Below are positions 3,925 through 13,099 of a stretch of DNA of 44,316 nucleotides, in pieces. Position numbers and translations under genes: made by a program. The notes beneath the pieces are model-generated. The model worked only from the letters and a program-made list of their open reading frames with translations, ran no database searches and was not told the origin of the DNA. Each line of letters opens with the position of its first letter. The first letter of the stretch is position 1. The stretch comes from Gemmatimonadota bacterium (GTDB lineage Bacteria > Gemmatimonadota > Gemmatimonadetes > Longimicrobiales > RSA9), in contig JBDLIA010000020.1 of NCBI GenBank assembly GCA_039715185.1, positions 1-44,316 of the forward strand. Direction: 5' to 3'.

Positions 3925-4233
3925 GAGTGCGTCCGTGGAACGATGGGTGTGTGAGGACACCGCTTCCCGCCTGCCACATCCTCCCTCACAGACTACCCTC
4001 ATGTGGGAGGCTGGTTCAAACATGCGCGGCGCTCGGCACTTTGTAGCGGGACCCGAAAAAGATGTCGCCCAACGTGCCCCGGCTCAATTCCCCTCCCGTG
4101 CCCCCGACAAGCGCGCTATGTGGTTTTCCGTCAACGGATTAGGCGCCTCGACGGCGGACACTGCCCTGGCGGGTGCGGGCGTTGCCCATTGAAACGGTCC
4201 GCGCGTCGAGCCGTGCACTCGGGGGAACGCGAA
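3925..4233. other. Divergent intergenic region
   Basis: This stretch lies between the leftward acyl-CoA dehydrogenase gene and the rightward riboswitch. It must contain both promoters, but no convincing -35/-10 pair could be assigned. No gene was seen. Confidence 0.5.
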
Positions 4234-4323
4234 GCGCTGCAAAGAGCAAAGCCGCCGAAAGGCGGTGACGCAGAGCCACGGAGCTACAGCGGATTTCCGC
4301 CAAGCTAGCCGGGCCGCCAGCGA
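4234..4323 (+). promoter_or_regulatory. GEMM-I cyclic-dinucleotide riboswitch, A20 variant (c-di-GMP or 3',3'-cGAMP)
   Basis: Conserved GEMM-I blocks appear in order. GAGCAAA is followed by a 6-bp P1b stem with a GAAA tetraloop (4251-4266), then GACGCAGAGCC, then a second stem with inner arm GCGG/CCGC (4289-4300), then TAGCCGGGCCGCC. P1 closes as CGCTG (4235-4239) with CAGCG (4318-4322). The nucleotide aligned with G20 of the Vibrio Vc2 aptamer, the middle G of its AGGGCAAA, is A here (4245). In the literature, A20 marks the GEMM-Ib class that binds 3',3'-cGAMP, or aptamers that accept both ligands. The family is clear; the ligand is inferred. Confidence 0.85.
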
Positions 4324-4375
4324 CTCGGGGAACGAGTTTGTCGGCGGCCTCTTGTCGTATCGGGGCTCCGAGTCG
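4321..4375 (+). promoter_or_regulatory. Probable expression platform of the riboswitch
   Basis: CGACTCGG (4321-4328) and CCGAGTCG (4368-4375) form a perfect 8-bp inverted repeat. Its left arm shares bases 4321-4322 with the 3' strand of P1. The same left arm can also form a local 5-bp hairpin (ACTCG 4323-4327 with CGAGT 4333-4337) followed by TT. Mutually exclusive pairing beside P1 is what a switch would need. Whether it acts on transcription or on access to the downstream ribosome site cannot be decided from sequence. Confidence 0.5.
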
Positions 4376-4397
4376 ATCGAAGCATGGGGTGGGGTGG

Positions 4398-4547
4398 ATG
4401 ACTGATGTAGTGATGCTCTCGATCTCGGTCCTGTCGTTCATGGTAGCGGGCGTGATCCTGGGTGCCGCGCTCGGCGGCGCGGAGGCGCCGGTGTCGGGCA
4501 CCGGGCCGGAAGACGCGGGGAAGGGTGGTGGTAGGACGCAGTCGTAG
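4398..4547 (+). CDS. Predicted small single-pass membrane protein under riboswitch control
   Basis: 49 residues from an ATG at 4398, preceded by a G-rich GGGGTGGGGTGG that could serve as a ribosome site. Residues about 5-28 form one hydrophobic segment (MLSISVLSFMVAGVILGAAL), followed by a short polar tail rich in Gly, Pro and Lys. I do not recognise the family. The case for a real gene is contextual: it is the first reading frame after the riboswitch and it is followed by an intrinsic terminator, so the transcript appears dedicated to it. An in-frame GTG at 4389 is an alternative start. A different translated product, or a non-coding RNA, remains possible. Confidence 0.5.
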   Translation: MTDVVMLSISVLSFMVAGVILGAALGGAEAPVSGTGPEDAGKGGGRTQS

Positions 4548-4710
4548 TTGGGTGGCGTGGAGGCTGTGATAGACCGGCGTTGGAGTTCGGACGCCGGCCC
4601 GAAATGACAGGTCGGGGTGTGGGTTCTTGCCGCGCTCGTGTTTGCAACCGCAAGGCATCCCCCCCTCCCGGGCCGCGCGAGGCCCCGCCCCGACCTTTCT
4701 TCATAGCAGA

Positions 4711-4742
4711 GGGCGCTTCGACCAGGTCGAGGCGCCCTTTTC
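4711..4742 (+). terminator. Intrinsic terminator closing the riboswitch transcript
   Basis: AGGGCGC-TTCGACC pairs with GGTCGA-GGCGCCCT through a nearly perfect 13-bp stem with one wobble, followed by TTTT. The U tract is on the + strand only, so it ends the transcript that starts with the riboswitch and separates it from the downstream lipoprotein gene. Confidence 0.8.
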
Positions 4743-4831
4743 GCGTGCCCTCCATTTGATCGGTCCCGGGCGCGGGCCCACATTCGGATCCGTCGCAGCG
4801 TTGGATACCCCGAGACCGGACACAGAAGTCG

Positions 4832-6295
4832 TTGAATCCCGCAATCACGCCGCATCGCGCGCGGCCGAAGCGCGCCAGCCCCTCCTCGGTGTCCCAGCGC
4901 TCGGCGGCGCGGAGGGCCGGCTTGTACGTCGCCCTCGCGATCCTGGCCGCGGCTTGCTCCGATGCGACCGCCCCGGTCGACGACACCGATCCGCCACCCG
5001 GTCCGACCGTGTCGGTCGAGCAGTTGAGCACCCTCAACCCGCTGACGCGGGGGTTCAGGGTCGATGTCGCGCCCACCGCCGCGGTCACCGTGGATTACTG
5101 GACCGAGGGCGAACCCCGCCTGCGAGTGCGAAGCGACCCGGGGCAGAGCCACGAGCTGCTTGTGGGCCGGCTGCTCCCGGACGCGACCTACGAGTACGAG
5201 GTGGCGTTCGAGTTCGATGACGCCACGGTCACGGTCGATCCCGCGACCGGCTCCTTCGTCACCGATACGCTCCCGACTTTCCTTCAGGCGGTCACTCTGA
5301 CGTCCACGGGCGAATCGACCTCTCCGCTCGTGATGCTCGAGTTGAGGGAGCCCACCTTCCAGGGATTCGCGGCGGTCGACTCCAAGGGCCGAGTGGTGTG
5401 GTATCATCCCACCACCGGCGGCTCCTGGAGCTGGACGCGTCGCGCCAACGGGAACTTCGTGTTCCTGGACACGGGCGCTGGGCTGAACGAGGTGACGCCG
5501 GCCGGGGACATCGTGGCCACGCTCGCTCGCGCCAACAACGAGTCGATCCACCACGACGTCATCGCGACGCCCCAGAACACCGTCTATTTCTTGACGCGGC
5601 ACCCGCAGCTGGTGGACGGGATCACCTGGGTCGGCGAGATCATCTGGGAGTGGAATCCCGATACGGGAGGGCTCGCGGAGCGCTGGAACAGCTTCGATTT
5701 CCTGTCGCCTTCCACCGATACGACCTCTCGGAGCACGCGCTCGGACTGGCTCCACGGCAACAGCCTGAATGTCGGGCCGGCCGGCGGCATCCTGCTGTCC
5801 AGCCCCTGGCTCAATCAGGTGATCGCCATCTCGAGCGACTTCACGGCCCTGGCGTGGCGCCTCGGAGGCAAGAACGCCACCATTTTCACCGATTCCGCGG
5901 GCACCTTCAATTTCCAGCACACGGCGTCCAGGCTCTCGGAGAACAGGGTGCTCGTCTTCGACAACCGCGGCGGCGGGACGAGCGGCTTCCCCGTATCGCG
6001 TGCGCTCGAGCTGGAGGTCGACTTTGCGGCCGACTCCGCCCGCGCCGTGTGGAGCTTCCAGGCGCCGAACGACAACTACGCCTCCATCATCAGCGCCGCC
6101 CGCAGGATGGCGAACGGCAACACCATGGTGACGTTCGGCACCTCGGACGGATTCCGCGAGTCGCGCGGGCCCATCGAGGTCTACGAAGTAGCGCCGGGCG
6201 GGAGCATCGTCTGGAACCTGGTGGTGGAAGGCCCCGCGCTGATGTATCGGGCGACCCCGTTCGGGGACATCGCGGGTGAGGTCGAGGTGCCTTGA
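4832..6295 (+). CDS. Arylsulfotransferase-like (ASST family) lipoprotein
   Basis: 487 residues from a TTG at 4832. A basic N-terminus and hydrophobic stretch end in a lipobox (LAAAC, Cys 42), so the protein is predicted to be exported and lipid-anchored. After a fibronectin/Ig-like segment (about 55-145), the rest resembles the ASST beta-propeller family. Repeated blades carry GRVVWYHP, HHDVIATPQNTVYFLTRH, GEIIWEWNPDTG, WLHGNSLN and RRMANGNTMVTFGTSDG. Enterobacterial ASST moves sulfate between phenols through a catalytic His; several conserved-looking His are present here, but activity is not shown. Many environmental ASST-like lipoproteins are of unknown role. The start is uncertain because the N-terminus before the hydrophobic stretch is long. 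The last codon overlaps the next gene. Confidence 0.85.
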   Translation: MNPAITPHRARPKRASPSSVSQRSAARRAGLYVALAILAAACSDATAPVDDTDPPPGPTVSVEQLSTLNPLTRGFRVDVAPTAAVTVDYWTEGEPRLRVRSDPGQSHELLVGRLLPDATYEYEVAFEFDDATVTVDPATGSFVTDTLPTFLQAVTLTSTGESTSPLVMLELREPTFQGFAAVDSKGRVVWYHPTTGGSWSWTRRANGNFVFLDTGAGLNEVTPAGDIVATLARANNESIHHDVIATPQNTVYFLTRHPQLVDGITWVGEIIWEWNPDTGGLAERWNSFDFLSPSTDTTSRSTRSDWLHGNSLNVGPAGGILLSSPWLNQVIAISSDFTALAWRLGGKNATIFTDSAGTFNFQHTASRLSENRVLVFDNRGGGTSGFPVSRALELEVDFAADSARAVWSFQAPNDNYASIISAARRMANGNTMVTFGTSDGFRESRGPIEVYEVAPGGSIVWNLVVEGPALMYRATPFGDIAGEVEVP

Positions 6296-8482: not shown

Positions 8483-11400
8483 TCAGCTGCCCTTCTTGAG
8501 AAACGAGGCGGTCAGCACTCCAAGGGCACGACCCAATCCTGCGGTGAATCCAGTAGGTCTACCACTCGCTGGATTATCCGGGCCGCTTGCCAACCCAATC
8601 GCGAACTCAGAGGCAAAGACATCAGGGTTGAAGTCCCGTCGGATTCTTGCGCCTATCGCTGACAACGAATTTGCGCCAAAACTCTCGAATTGGCCATTCG
8701 TTGGGTTGAATGGCTGCAGCCTGCCCCCGGCTCCTCGCTTGAGCGGTCGCAAGATCCCGCTAGTGGCGCGACTCGCTATACGTCCTGCTCTGGCTGCTCT
8801 GCCGATAGGCACGAGTGAAACCGCGGCCACTGCGGTTCCGACCGCGTCTCGTTCGCTCGCGGCGCCGAGCAAGGCGTTTACGCCAGCTGCCTCCGAGAGG
8901 CCGTTGAGGGCTGCGGCCCCGTTAAGCATGACACTACCGAAGAAGCCGCCGCGAATCGCACCCCTGTTGGCGATTTCTTGGAGCGCGCAATCGGGGAAAG
9001 GAACGCAGAGCCCGAAGGGATCGATGAACGATGCCGGGTTGTTTCCTCCGTAGTTGTAGAGGTTGATGCCGCCGCCGAAGCCGATCGGATCCTCTTGAGT
9101 GAATTTGCCCGTCTGGGAGTTGTAGAACCGGTTGCGGAAGAACGAGAGCGAGACGCCGCCGATACCCGAGGCGTCGGAGGTCGAGCGAGAGAGCCCGAAG
9201 CCTCGGCTGTCGGCGACAGCGCCCGACTCGCTCCCGAACGCGGCGAAAACACCACCCACCCCCCCTGGATCTGCACAGTCGTCGCCATCGGCGTTTTGGA
9301 AATCGAACAGTCGGCCGCCGTGGGTAACGTAGAAATAGGCGAATTCACCGTCACAACTGTACGAGTCCAGCGGGTCCAGGAACAACGGATCATCTGTCCC
9401 GGGCCCGGGAGTGAAGTGGCCGCCGCCCTGGCCGTCGCCGTAGAAGGCGACGTTGTCTCCATCGAAGATGACTCGAGTCGTGCCGATTCCGCCGTTGATG
9501 GTGTCGGTCAAACCGATGCCGACCCGCCTACCGAAGGGATCGTAGCGAAACCGCTTCTCGAGAGGGAAGGCCGCGGTGAGCTGTCCCGCGGCGTTGTAGT
9601 ACCTGGCGAAGTTGCTGGCGTTGACGCCGATCCCATCCAGGTGACGCACCTCGTTTCCGTTCTTGTCGTGCGTGTACTGGTCAAGGGCCGTACCCGTGGG
9701 TGACTGAATCTCGACCGTCATGTTGCCAAGCAGATCGACCACGTGCACCGTTGAGTCGCCACCGCCGATCCCTGTCCGATTTCCCGCGGCATCGTAGTGG
9801 AAGCGGTTGGGCGTAGTCGTCGAGTTCTGCGTAACGTCCACATGGGTTACTGCATCGCGCCCATTGTACTGGCTTACGGTGAGGTCGAATCCGCTGGTGG
9901 TAACCCGACGCTCGCCGTGATCCTCTTCTCGGATCAGGTTCCCGTCCCGATCGTAGGTATACCGTTGGTCAACTGGGTCCTCTAACTGTTGCGTGTGTGT
10001 TGAGTGAACCCGCCCGAGTCTCCCGTTCGCGTCGTAGTGGAAGTCGGTAGTGGAACCTGAGGAGTAGGCAAGCTGGTGCTTCCTGCCGAGTCCATCCCAC
10101 GCGAAGGTCGCCGATGGGCCAAGGGCGCCAGATACGGTCGAGAGCTCGTTCCCGGCCCCGTACGTGTAGGTGACCGTTCGCACGATTGATGTTGGCTGGT
10201 ATGGCCACGTCCATGACGCGCGATTCCCGGCCAGGTCGTAAGTGTAATCCTGCGTGTAGGAGGCGTTGGCGGCCCAGTCGGTGAGGTTCTGCACCTCTTT
10301 TGTAAGCAGTCCGCGGGAGTTGTAGGTCCTGACGACCTGGCTGGTCGCGTTCTCAGCAAGCTTCACACGCCCTGCAACGTCGTATTGCCACGTGATCGTA
10401 TCGCCCACGACTAGCGTGTCGCCGATCTGCATTGGGTTAAAGGACCAGGGGCTTTCCATAAGATCCCTATAGAGATCCAGTTCCGCCTGGTCGTCGACCA
10501 TGATCTGGCCGAGGATGCGGTTGATCGGGCGATTCATCGCGTCGTACTGCGTGGTGATCGTGTCGCCCTGGCGATCCTTCTGCCAGACTACATTTCCGGA
10601 GACATCGTGGCGCGTGAGCGCGGTGTAGCCCCGGGAGTCGCGCATGAGAGTGTCGCGCTCGAGTTCGTCGAACTCCCATTCCCTGGTGAGCCCTCGCGGA
10701 TCTGTGACTCTCGTGGCGTTGTCGGCTCCGTCGTAATCGGTGGCAGTCGTGAACTTCTGCGCGCCCTCCCACTGCTCTACGTGCGTACGTCGGTTGCGGA
10801 GGTCGTACTGGAACGTCTGTCTTCTGCCCTCGGCGCTCAGCACCTCCTTGACGTTGCCGTACGCGTCCCGGCTGACGATGTCGGTCGAGTCGCTAGTGGG
10901 CGAGATCGTCCTCTTGAGATTCCGATTCCCGCCGTACTCGAACGTCGTCGTGAGATTCTGCGTGCTTGTCGTGTTTGTGGCCGGGTTGTAGACCTCCACC
11001 GACTCCTCGGTAATCGTCTTGACCTGGCCCTGCTCGTAGGTGAAGCGCGTGACGTGACCGTTCGCGGTGGTCGCAGTCTCGGGCGTACCGTCAGCGTTGT
11101 AGCTGAAGAGAGTTGTATCGGCGGCTGCGGAGTCGCCACGCGGGCGAATGACCCGGCTTGGTTTCTCAGGTGCGTCGGCATCAGCGTAGTCGTAGTGCAC
11201 CGAGTCCGCGCCGCTCAGGTTGGCAAGGTCTTGCGTCATCTCAAGCCTGGCCGATGTGTCCCAACGCTGGCGGATCTGAGTCCCGTCCGGCTCGTTGATC
11301 GCTGTGACCAGCAGCGGGTGGGTCAGATCATAGGCGACGGTCGTCTCGTTCCCGGCAGCGTCACGGATCTTGGTGAGTGATCCAAACCGATTCACCCAGA

Positions 11401-13099
11401 ACACGGCCGAGTCGCCGACCGTCGTGCGCGGCCCGTCAATCACGATGTTAGTCCGGGCCGCAGAAGCGACAGCGTTGCCTGCCGTAAGTTGGGCAAGGCC
11501 CCGTGACTCGATGGGCTTGTAAGTGAGGACGGCCGTACCACTGCCGGTTGCTGGCAGCGTGACCGTGCTGAGGAGGAGTGTTTCGCCGTGGTAGGCATAG
11601 GTGGTTGTGGCGCCACGGGGCGAGCGCCGACTGGTCAGACGCCGGAGGCCACCCGTTTCATAGCCTAGCACGACCTCTTCGCCTATCCACAGCCCGACAG
11701 GGAGAATCGTCAGCAGCAGTTTCTCACTGCTCACGTTCGTATTCAGACGCCGGCCCGCGGGGTCGTCGATGAAAGCAAGCCCGTGAACGCCGTAGACAAA
11801 GTCGTAGGTCAGATTCGCGGCCCATGGCGCGATCCGGACCTGTGTCAGCCCCGCGCCGAGCGTCGTGTTCTGGTAGGTGTGGCCGACGACGTTGCCGACC
11901 CGGTCCGTCACGTAGACCTGCTGGCCGTACTGGTTGAAGTAGACGTTTGTGCCGTCCTGCAACCTCCGCTCGTACAGCCACACCTGGGCGGTGACGTCGG
12001 GGCTCGGATCGTCGAGTTGCTTCCACTCGATCGTGTCCTGGAATGCGCCGGCCGGTGCACGCCACAGGTTCGGCCCGATCGGGATGTAGGCCGCGGCGCT
12101 TCCGTCACCTTCGACCAGCAGCAGCGTGTCGGCGAGCACGCTCGTGTAGAGCTCGCTCACGCCGGCGATCCACCAGCCGGCTCCGTAGGGGCTCTGCGAG
12201 CGGTCAACCGTAATGAACTTGCTCTTGAACACGGCCGTCGCAAACGGCTCGGTGCCGTAGTAGTTGACTACGTTCAGGTCGTAGTCGTGTATGCCCGTGC
12301 CAAGCGCGCCCGCGTCGTAGGGCATCGAGAAGCGGCTCTTCGCAGCCGAAGATAGGCCCGCGCCCTGGAAGGAGCGGGTCTCGGTCACCTGTCCGACCTT
12401 GACGCTCGTGCGGAAGCTGTCGGGTACGGAGATGCCGTCCAGCCACACGTCGCCCATCACGACGGGCCGTGGGCTCGCGGTCGCGCTGTTGTAGAGCAAC
12501 GTTAGTGTGCGGTCCCGGTCGAGCGACTTGAACGCTGGCATGGAGTGCGTCACGAGCAGGTTTCCGCACTGAAAGGCGCCGGCCGGGCCGGCTCCGCTCG
12601 TCACGCACGCGCTCCGCTCGATCAGCTCCGTGGGGTTAACGGTCGCGTCGAGCGAGAGCGGTCCGTGCGCGACCACCAGCACGTTGTGGGAATCGGAGGT
12701 CGAGTGGCCGTTGTCGGTCGCGGTCAGGGTCAGAAGACCTGTGCCCGCTGTGCCCACGTCGAAGGTCACCGTTACGGTACGAAAGGCCTCGGGGAAGATC
12801 GTGAAGGAGCTCGGAGCGCTGCAGTTCGAGACCGGACCGGTGCCGCTACAGCTCAGCGAGACCGTGATCTTATTGGGATCGTCGTTGAAGATCCGGAACT
12901 GCGCCGTGTGGCCTGTAGTGTTCTCCTGCAACTGGCCCACCGACCCCCACCGGATCACCTCGAAGTGGTTGCGTGACGCGGCCTCCTCAGGCGGGGCCTC
13001 GCTCGCCCCGACCGAACTTGCCGCGGGCGGTGTGGCGGAAACCAAGCGGAGGGGCGTGAACAGCGAGGCCAGCAGGACCAACGCGAACCGGGTAGCCAC
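8483..13099 (-). CDS. Secreted Rhs/YD-repeat protein with variable C-terminal (putative toxin) domain
   Basis: 1538 residues. A Sec signal peptide (about 1-22, ending LRLVSA) is followed by an Ig-like domain (about 45-150) and a region rich in beta strands. A long array of YD/RHS repeats comes next (for example YDANGRLGRVHS, YDRDGNLIREE, FRYDPFGRRVG). The hallmark RHS core is RFYNSQTGKFTQEDPIGF, LYNYGGNNPASFIDPFGL, near residues 1320-1364. About 174 residues follow DPFGL (8486-9007). They include a hydrophobic Gly/Ala-rich linker, then a short tail with GAGGRLQPFNPTNGQFES that I cannot assign to a toxin family. RHS repeats form a shell that encapsulates the C-terminal effector in characterised proteins. 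It lies in the island next to a putative immunity gene, which supports an interbacterial toxin; a structural surface role is the alternative. Confidence 0.9.
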   Translation of the reverse strand: MATRFALVLLASLFTPLRLVSATPPAASSVGASEAPPEEAASRNHFEVIRWGSVGQLQENTTGHTAQFRIFNDDPNKITVSLSCSGTGPVSNCSAPSSFTIFPEAFRTVTVTFDVGTAGTGLLTLTATDNGHSTSDSHNVLVVAHGPLSLDATVNPTELIERSACVTSGAGPAGAFQCGNLLVTHSMPAFKSLDRDRTLTLLYNSATASPRPVVMGDVWLDGISVPDSFRTSVKVGQVTETRSFQGAGLSSAAKSRFSMPYDAGALGTGIHDYDLNVVNYYGTEPFATAVFKSKFITVDRSQSPYGAGWWIAGVSELYTSVLADTLLLVEGDGSAAAYIPIGPNLWRAPAGAFQDTIEWKQLDDPSPDVTAQVWLYERRLQDGTNVYFNQYGQQVYVTDRVGNVVGHTYQNTTLGAGLTQVRIAPWAANLTYDFVYGVHGLAFIDDPAGRRLNTNVSSEKLLLTILPVGLWIGEEVVLGYETGGLRRLTSRRSPRGATTTYAYHGETLLLSTVTLPATGSGTAVLTYKPIESRGLAQLTAGNAVASAARTNIVIDGPRTTVGDSAVFWVNRFGSLTKIRDAAGNETTVAYDLTHPLLVTAINEPDGTQIRQRWDTSARLEMTQDLANLSGADSVHYDYADADAPEKPSRVIRPRGDSAAADTTLFSYNADGTPETATTANGHVTRFTYEQGQVKTITEESVEVYNPATNTTSTQNLTTTFEYGGNRNLKRTISPTSDSTDIVSRDAYGNVKEVLSAEGRRQTFQYDLRNRRTHVEQWEGAQKFTTATDYDGADNATRVTDPRGLTREWEFDELERDTLMRDSRGYTALTRHDVSGNVVWQKDRQGDTITTQYDAMNRPINRILGQIMVDDQAELDLYRDLMESPWSFNPMQIGDTLVVGDTITWQYDVAGRVKLAENATSQVVRTYNSRGLLTKEVQNLTDWAANASYTQDYTYDLAGNRASWTWPYQPTSIVRTVTYTYGAGNELSTVSGALGPSATFAWDGLGRKHQLAYSSGSTTDFHYDANGRLGRVHSTHTQQLEDPVDQRYTYDRDGNLIREEDHGERRVTTSGFDLTVSQYNGRDAVTHVDVTQNSTTTPNRFHYDAAGNRTGIGGGDSTVHVVDLLGNMTVEIQSPTGTALDQYTHDKNGNEVRHLDGIGVNASNFARYYNAAGQLTAAFPLEKRFRYDPFGRRVGIGLTDTINGGIGTTRVIFDGDNVAFYGDGQGGGHFTPGPGTDDPLFLDPLDSYSCDGEFAYFYVTHGGRLFDFQNADGDDCADPGGVGGVFAAFGSESGAVADSRGFGLSRSTSDASGIGGVSLSFFRNRFYNSQTGKFTQEDPIGFGGGINLYNYGGNNPASFIDPFGLCVPFPDCALQEIANRGAIRGGFFGSVMLNGAAALNGLSEAAGVNALLGAASERDAVGTAVAAVSLVPIGRAARAGRIASRATSGILRPLKRGAGGRLQPFNPTNGQFESFGANSLSAIGARIRRDFNPDVFASEFAIGLASGPDNPASGRPTGFTAGLGRALGVLTASFLKKGS

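Follow-up and report, generated by a model that had tools for sequence, protein, structure and literature searches.

A 44,316-nucleotide stretch of DNA from a Gemmatimonadota bacterium (hereafter the window) carries a riboswitch aptamer followed by a very short open reading frame, and the locus raises the question of which nucleotide this RNA senses, c-di-GMP or 3',3'-cGAMP, and which gene it controls. When the region was analyzed with cmscan, the plus strand at 4235-4321 matched the covariance model RF01051 over its full length (positions 1-87 of 87) with 70.5 bits, above the gathering score of 35 bits (E = 5.8e-12), which confirmed the GEMM-I assignment made in a preliminary description of this DNA, and no other Rfam family was found within 4150-4900 at E values up to 1. 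The base 4245 is an A aligned to model position 11, as had been claimed for the G20 column. We take model position 11, from the known numbering, to be G20 of Vc2, which places A47 right after the GC that closes P2, at 4272. The elements of the aptamer are the following.

4235-4321, plus strand: GEMM-I (c-di-GMP-I) aptamer of the A20/G48 subclass
4235-4239, plus strand: 5' strand of P1 (CGCUG), pairing with CAGCG at 4318-4322
4245, plus strand: A in the G20 column, presumably a ligand contact in the Vc2 numbering of the known structure
4272, plus strand: equivalent of A47, the intercalating adenine, conserved in the cmscan alignment
4273, plus strand: G at position 48 (family consensus A), a second pocket change seen in the order only with A20
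4317, plus strand: equivalent of C92, base C, conserved in the cmscan alignment

The C92 equivalent presumably pairs with the second base of the ligand, as in the known structure. The pocket set of RF01051 is G20/A47/A48/C92, and the window aptamer keeps A47 and C92 and has A at 20 and G at 48, a change at base 4273 that had been overlooked in the preliminary description. The aptamer carries the A at position 20 (base 4245) expected of GEMM-Ib but not the A48 of the Geobacter-group A20 aptamers. Positions 20 and 48 are among those reported as necessary for ligand recognition, and the role of A47 is reported likewise (PMC3764141). The window RNA shares with the c-di-GMP-I riboswitch (RF01051, e.g. 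Vc2) the fold, the GAAA tetraloop, A47, C92 and an expression platform coupled to P1, but it has A20 and G48 whereas the Vc2 type has G20 and A48. It resembles the GEMM-Ib 3',3'-cGAMP riboswitch of Geobacter in A20 and in a predicted ON-type control of a terminator; in contrast, the Geobacteraceae and Desulfuromusa aptamers compared carry A48, and the ligand of the window RNA is a predicted one. The A20/A48 aptamers of Firmicutes likewise present A20 within an otherwise ordinary GEMM-I RNA, but they keep A48 and lack the CGCUGCUCAG consensus.

The changes at positions 20 and 48 were found to be linked in the order. Among the exact matches in 154 genomes, obtained with a pattern that allowed A or G at position 48, A20 was accompanied by G48 in 50 of 50 cases and G20 by A48 in 36 of 36, with no mixed types. 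The Fisher p value of 5e-25, calculated with matches as units, overstates this linkage, because the A20/G48 RNAs form one lineage, recognisable by CGCUGCUCAG before A20, and the relatedness of such non-independent units inflates the figure. At least 37 A20/G48 aptamers were found when 84,980 species genomes were scanned, and 30 of the matches listed belong to Gemmatimonadota; the matches listed also include one each from Chloroflexi, Acidobacteria, Nitrospirota, Zixiibacteriota and Desulfuromonadales, together with two further single cases, in another deltaproteobacterial bin and in one other bacterium. At least 84 A20/A48 aptamers were found in the same scan, mostly in Firmicutes, the Gemmatimonadota exception among the matches listed being L053. 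The window RNA is a member of a GEMM-I subclass (A20 and G48, with a P1 that is mostly CGCUG/CAGCG) concentrated in Gemmatimonadota, and the preliminary description was right in placing it in a phylum outside the Geobacter group.

The features that could couple this aptamer to gene expression lie immediately downstream.

4311-4350, plus strand: putative terminator hairpin sharing the 3' strand of P3/P1 (fold of -27.3 kcal/mol for 4310-4356)
4386-4394, plus strand: G-rich, weakly Shine-Dalgarno-like stretch
4398-4547, plus strand: 49-codon frame (ATG at 4398, TAG at 4547) encoding a predicted single-pass membrane protein with one hydrophobic stretch
4609-4703, plus strand: long G+C-rich hairpin followed by UUUCUU (fold of -51.7 kcal/mol for 4600-4706)
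about 4709-4742, plus strand: intrinsic-terminator-like perfect hairpin with UUUU (fold of -28.0 kcal/mol for 4704-4748)
4922-6295, plus strand: next large gene, encoding an arylsulfotransferase-like lipoprotein (PF05935, E = 3.1e-29)

The hairpin at 4311-4350 is located directly 3' of the aptamer and has a weak U tract (CUUGUCGU); since it uses the same 3' strands as P1, the two structures are mutually exclusive. In 57 of the 77 A20/G48 aptamers that could be read, P1 has all five pairs, and some of the changes within it are compensatory. Of 75 readable ones, 55 have further downstream a strand able to pair with the 3' strand of P1/P3, compared with 21% when the downstream sequence was shuffled. 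Many A20/G48 aptamers, but not all, have a U-rich tail, that of the window being weak. The P1-competing hairpin and the U-rich tail present in many of these RNAs therefore predict a ligand-ON switch, and we infer the same direction of control for the window. Ligand binding would lock P1 and P3 and block the 4311-4350 hairpin, and transcription would then proceed into the 49-codon frame and end near 4742, as in a ligand-ON transcriptional switch. The hairpins at 4311-4350 and 4709-4742 both come from folding and reading of the sequence, neither being listed by an automated terminator scan. A short transcript made of the small frame and a terminator, as formerly proposed, is plausible. The arylsulfotransferase-like lipoprotein gene is an alternative target of the switch, although it lies past the terminators.

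The 49-codon frame, whose translation we infer, encodes a protein that gave no match in Pfam. Its codon-usage score corresponds to the 32nd percentile of the gene segments of the window and is attained by 1.6% of wrong-frame segments, with a training set of long ORFs chosen by length alone that includes a spurious minus-strand ORF (4142-5920) overlapping the frame itself; the probability that an open frame this long arises here by chance is about 0.34. No homologue was detected in 60 relatives, which all belong to other genera and retain the aptamer only in part of the cases, so that the conservation of the small frame proposed as a check was not observed in this set; the best other match had an E value of 0.02, and such matches lay mostly within longer frames. 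A genome of the same family (G004) has in the same place an unrelated membrane frame of 45 amino acids with a strong Shine-Dalgarno sequence, which was considered as a relative of the 49-amino acid protein and rejected as dissimilar (E = 0.38). The small frame also departs from the usual targets. With the next gene taken by a simple rule, most A20/G48 aptamers for which that gene could be read are located before proteins whose N-terminus is hydrophobic, many of them lipoproteins, whereas the next frame in the window has only 49 codons. In the author-chosen selection of target proteins that was scanned, those behind A20/G48 aptamers often bear Big_2/Big_1 Ig-like repeats. Within the order, G20/A48 aptamers are often followed by GH26-like secreted proteins, and these differing kinds of downstream genes in the same order hint at different signals.

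The enzymes that could supply each nucleotide were then surveyed. Hypr enzymes carry a GGDE[F/Y] motif (PMC6456294) and are marked by Ser or Thr where strict diguanylate cyclases have Asp (PMC9140294). The genome that contains the window (G000; 3.66 Mb, 252 contigs, 96% complete) encodes five GGDEF proteins that read as Asp-type with intact GGDEF/GGEEF, and in its one Ser-type GGDEF protein (L011) the motif reads GGAEF and the conserved Asn is missing. The Hypr-type enzyme whose presence had been suggested as a check was not found in this 96% complete genome, both as a Ser-type protein with an intact motif and as an orthologue in the search with a GAF-GGDEF profile, and no CD-NTase was detected in it with the SMODS model, the sole CD-NTase model used. 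As a source of cGAMP, CD-NTases were also discarded among the A20 genomes, where two weak sub-cut-off matches (G035 and G015) were the only ones.

Across the order, the GAF-GGDEF Hypr profile matched in ten genomes at 528-618 bits, all other listed matches being below 150 bits. These ten Gemmatimonadota genomes encode Hypr-type GAF-GGDEF proteins with Ser and GGDEF (L268-L277), which makes cGAMP synthesis in the phylum possible and, given such enzymes in relatives of the window genome, cGAMP signalling plausible. Intact Hypr-type enzymes are present in G004 and G009, two A20 genomes of the same family as that of the window, and the best PDB match of the G004 enzyme is the GacA structure 6d9m. 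The orthologue was found in 4 of the order's 34 A20 genomes versus 6 of 120 others (p = 0.23), and in 2 of the 18 A20 genomes that are at least 95% complete. Among genomes with G20 aptamers 6 of 18 had it, compared with 4 of 136 for the rest (p = 1.7e-4), an association that probably reflects common descent within a single family. When further Gemmatimonadota A20/G48 genomes were reached through their contigs, only one had Hypr, and its coordinates are identical to those in G039, so that the two genome sets overlap. In four sampled A20 genomes (G007, G010, G031 and G126) the 24 GGDEF matches read were all Asp-type, out of 38 matches of which 30 were retrieved, 6 being unreadable by the motif regex and 8 outside the reading. 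Outside the phylum, Ser with GGDE[F/Y] was found in 3 of 7 A20/G48 genomes, and the Nitrospirota carriers have Ser with GGEEF. The sampled Firmicutes with A20/A48 aptamers gave nucleotide matches with one mismatch to a Ser-type GGDEF but no zero-mismatch match, whereas a Geobacteraceae genome gave exact ones. In several A20/A48 Bacilli (L334, L336-L341 and others), GGDEF-like matches read GHxxG and then a codon starting with AA, not Asp. This census, which can overlook synthases of unrecognised families, speaks against cGAMP as a general ligand in Gemmatimonadota, and an unrecognised synthase is compatible with it.

Position 20 has been described as a selectivity factor rather than a hard filter (PMC9262584). 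In known cases A20 weakens c-di-GMP binding and favours cGAMP (PMC6456294, PMC9481103), and one assayed A20 aptamer retained c-di-GMP binding, perhaps slightly weakened (PMC9481103). The view that A20 suffices as evidence for cGAMP was not supported, given that A20 comes here with G48, that A20/A48 aptamers are common in Firmicutes and that neither an intact Hypr enzyme nor a SMODS CD-NTase was detected in the window genome. The ligand would be a cyclic dinucleotide and, in this genome, most likely c-di-GMP, because its GGDEF proteins with an intact motif look like Asp-type cyclases and the survey revealed no cGAMP synthase; we hold this assignment with modest confidence, as a roughly even call, and the chemistry of A20, which favours adenine, counts against it. 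G48 may make up for the contact lost with A20. The best explanation as a whole, an A20/G48 GEMM-I ligand-ON switch that most likely responds to c-di-GMP and has the 49-codon frame as its target, is a tentative one that falls just short of an even call.

It is rather unlikely, in our judgement, that the A20/G48 RNAs are dedicated 3',3'-cGAMP sensors whose synthase was lost, was missed or belongs to an unrecognised family. In such a pocket A20 would read the Hoogsteen side of the adenine, G48 its other edge, and C92 would pair with the guanine, in agreement with the cGAMP-favouring nature of A20 (PMC6456294, PMC9481103), the retention of C92, the intact Hypr enzymes of the same-family A20 genomes G004 (GacA-like by its best PDB match, 6d9m) and G009, and the Ser-type enzymes encoded by three of the seven A20/G48 genomes from outside the phylum. 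However, the Hypr orthologue is missing in 30 of 34 A20 genomes, including 16 of the 18 with a completeness of 95% or more, its association with A20 is not significant, the contig-reached set, which may repeat genomes of the first, has it only once, and no SMODS CD-NTase was detected in G000. A promiscuous pocket, or one that recognises some other related nucleotide, appears improbable: the recognition positions 20 and 48 (PMC3764141) are altered together and cGAMP riboswitches are able to bind c-di-GMP (PMC9262584), but the scaffold is the usual one, with C92 and A47 in place, and there was no independent sign of another nucleotide. That the window copy is decaying, with an aptamer that persists without switching and a 49-codon frame due to chance, is very improbable; the full-length 70.5-bit aptamer, the intact P1, the gene-like codon usage and the similar layout of G004, with its small membrane frame and strong Shine-Dalgarno sequence, argue against decay, although the U tract past 4350 is weak, the frame gave no homologue in the 60 relatives and chance alone would readily produce a frame this long. 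Broader in scope, and doubtful though possible, is the proposal that the A20/G48 aptamers make up a riboswitch class of their own, with a ligand other than c-di-GMP (cGAMP made by an unrecognised synthase, or another nucleotide), with a regulon of Ig-like surface lipoproteins.

Position 20 serves as a sequence signature of cGAMP riboswitches, and here it is coupled to a second pocket base. Since A20 is tied to G48 in genomes that mostly have no recognised cGAMP synthase, ligand calls made from A20 alone may err in many bacteria. Should cGAMP prove to be the ligand, the A20/G48 genomes would be expected to contain an unrecognised synthase.

The window genome has five GEMM-I aptamers: the window copy and L005 are of the A20/G48 type, L001 is of the G20/A48 type but has U at position 92, and L003 and L004 share a GGCACC core. 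L001 (1501-1591) precedes a gene for a GH26-like secreted protein, and its U at the C92 position could make it read A rather than G as the second base. L003 and L004 (1501 to about 1595) combine the GGCACC core with a GCGA loop ahead of exported proteins, and similar aptamers occur in G041 and G032 (L153, L156). Elsewhere in the window, the minus strand at 8483-13099 encodes a large RHS-repeat-like protein. Downstream of the A20/G48 switch, the sequence GGGAYTCGCAACCCCGCGCAA is common to L178 (3360-3380, G002) and L180 (3669-3689, G004). In two further genomes (G051 and G005), A20/G48 and G20/A48 aptamers are arranged in tandem ahead of one gene (L137 and L140/L182), a possible two-input switch.
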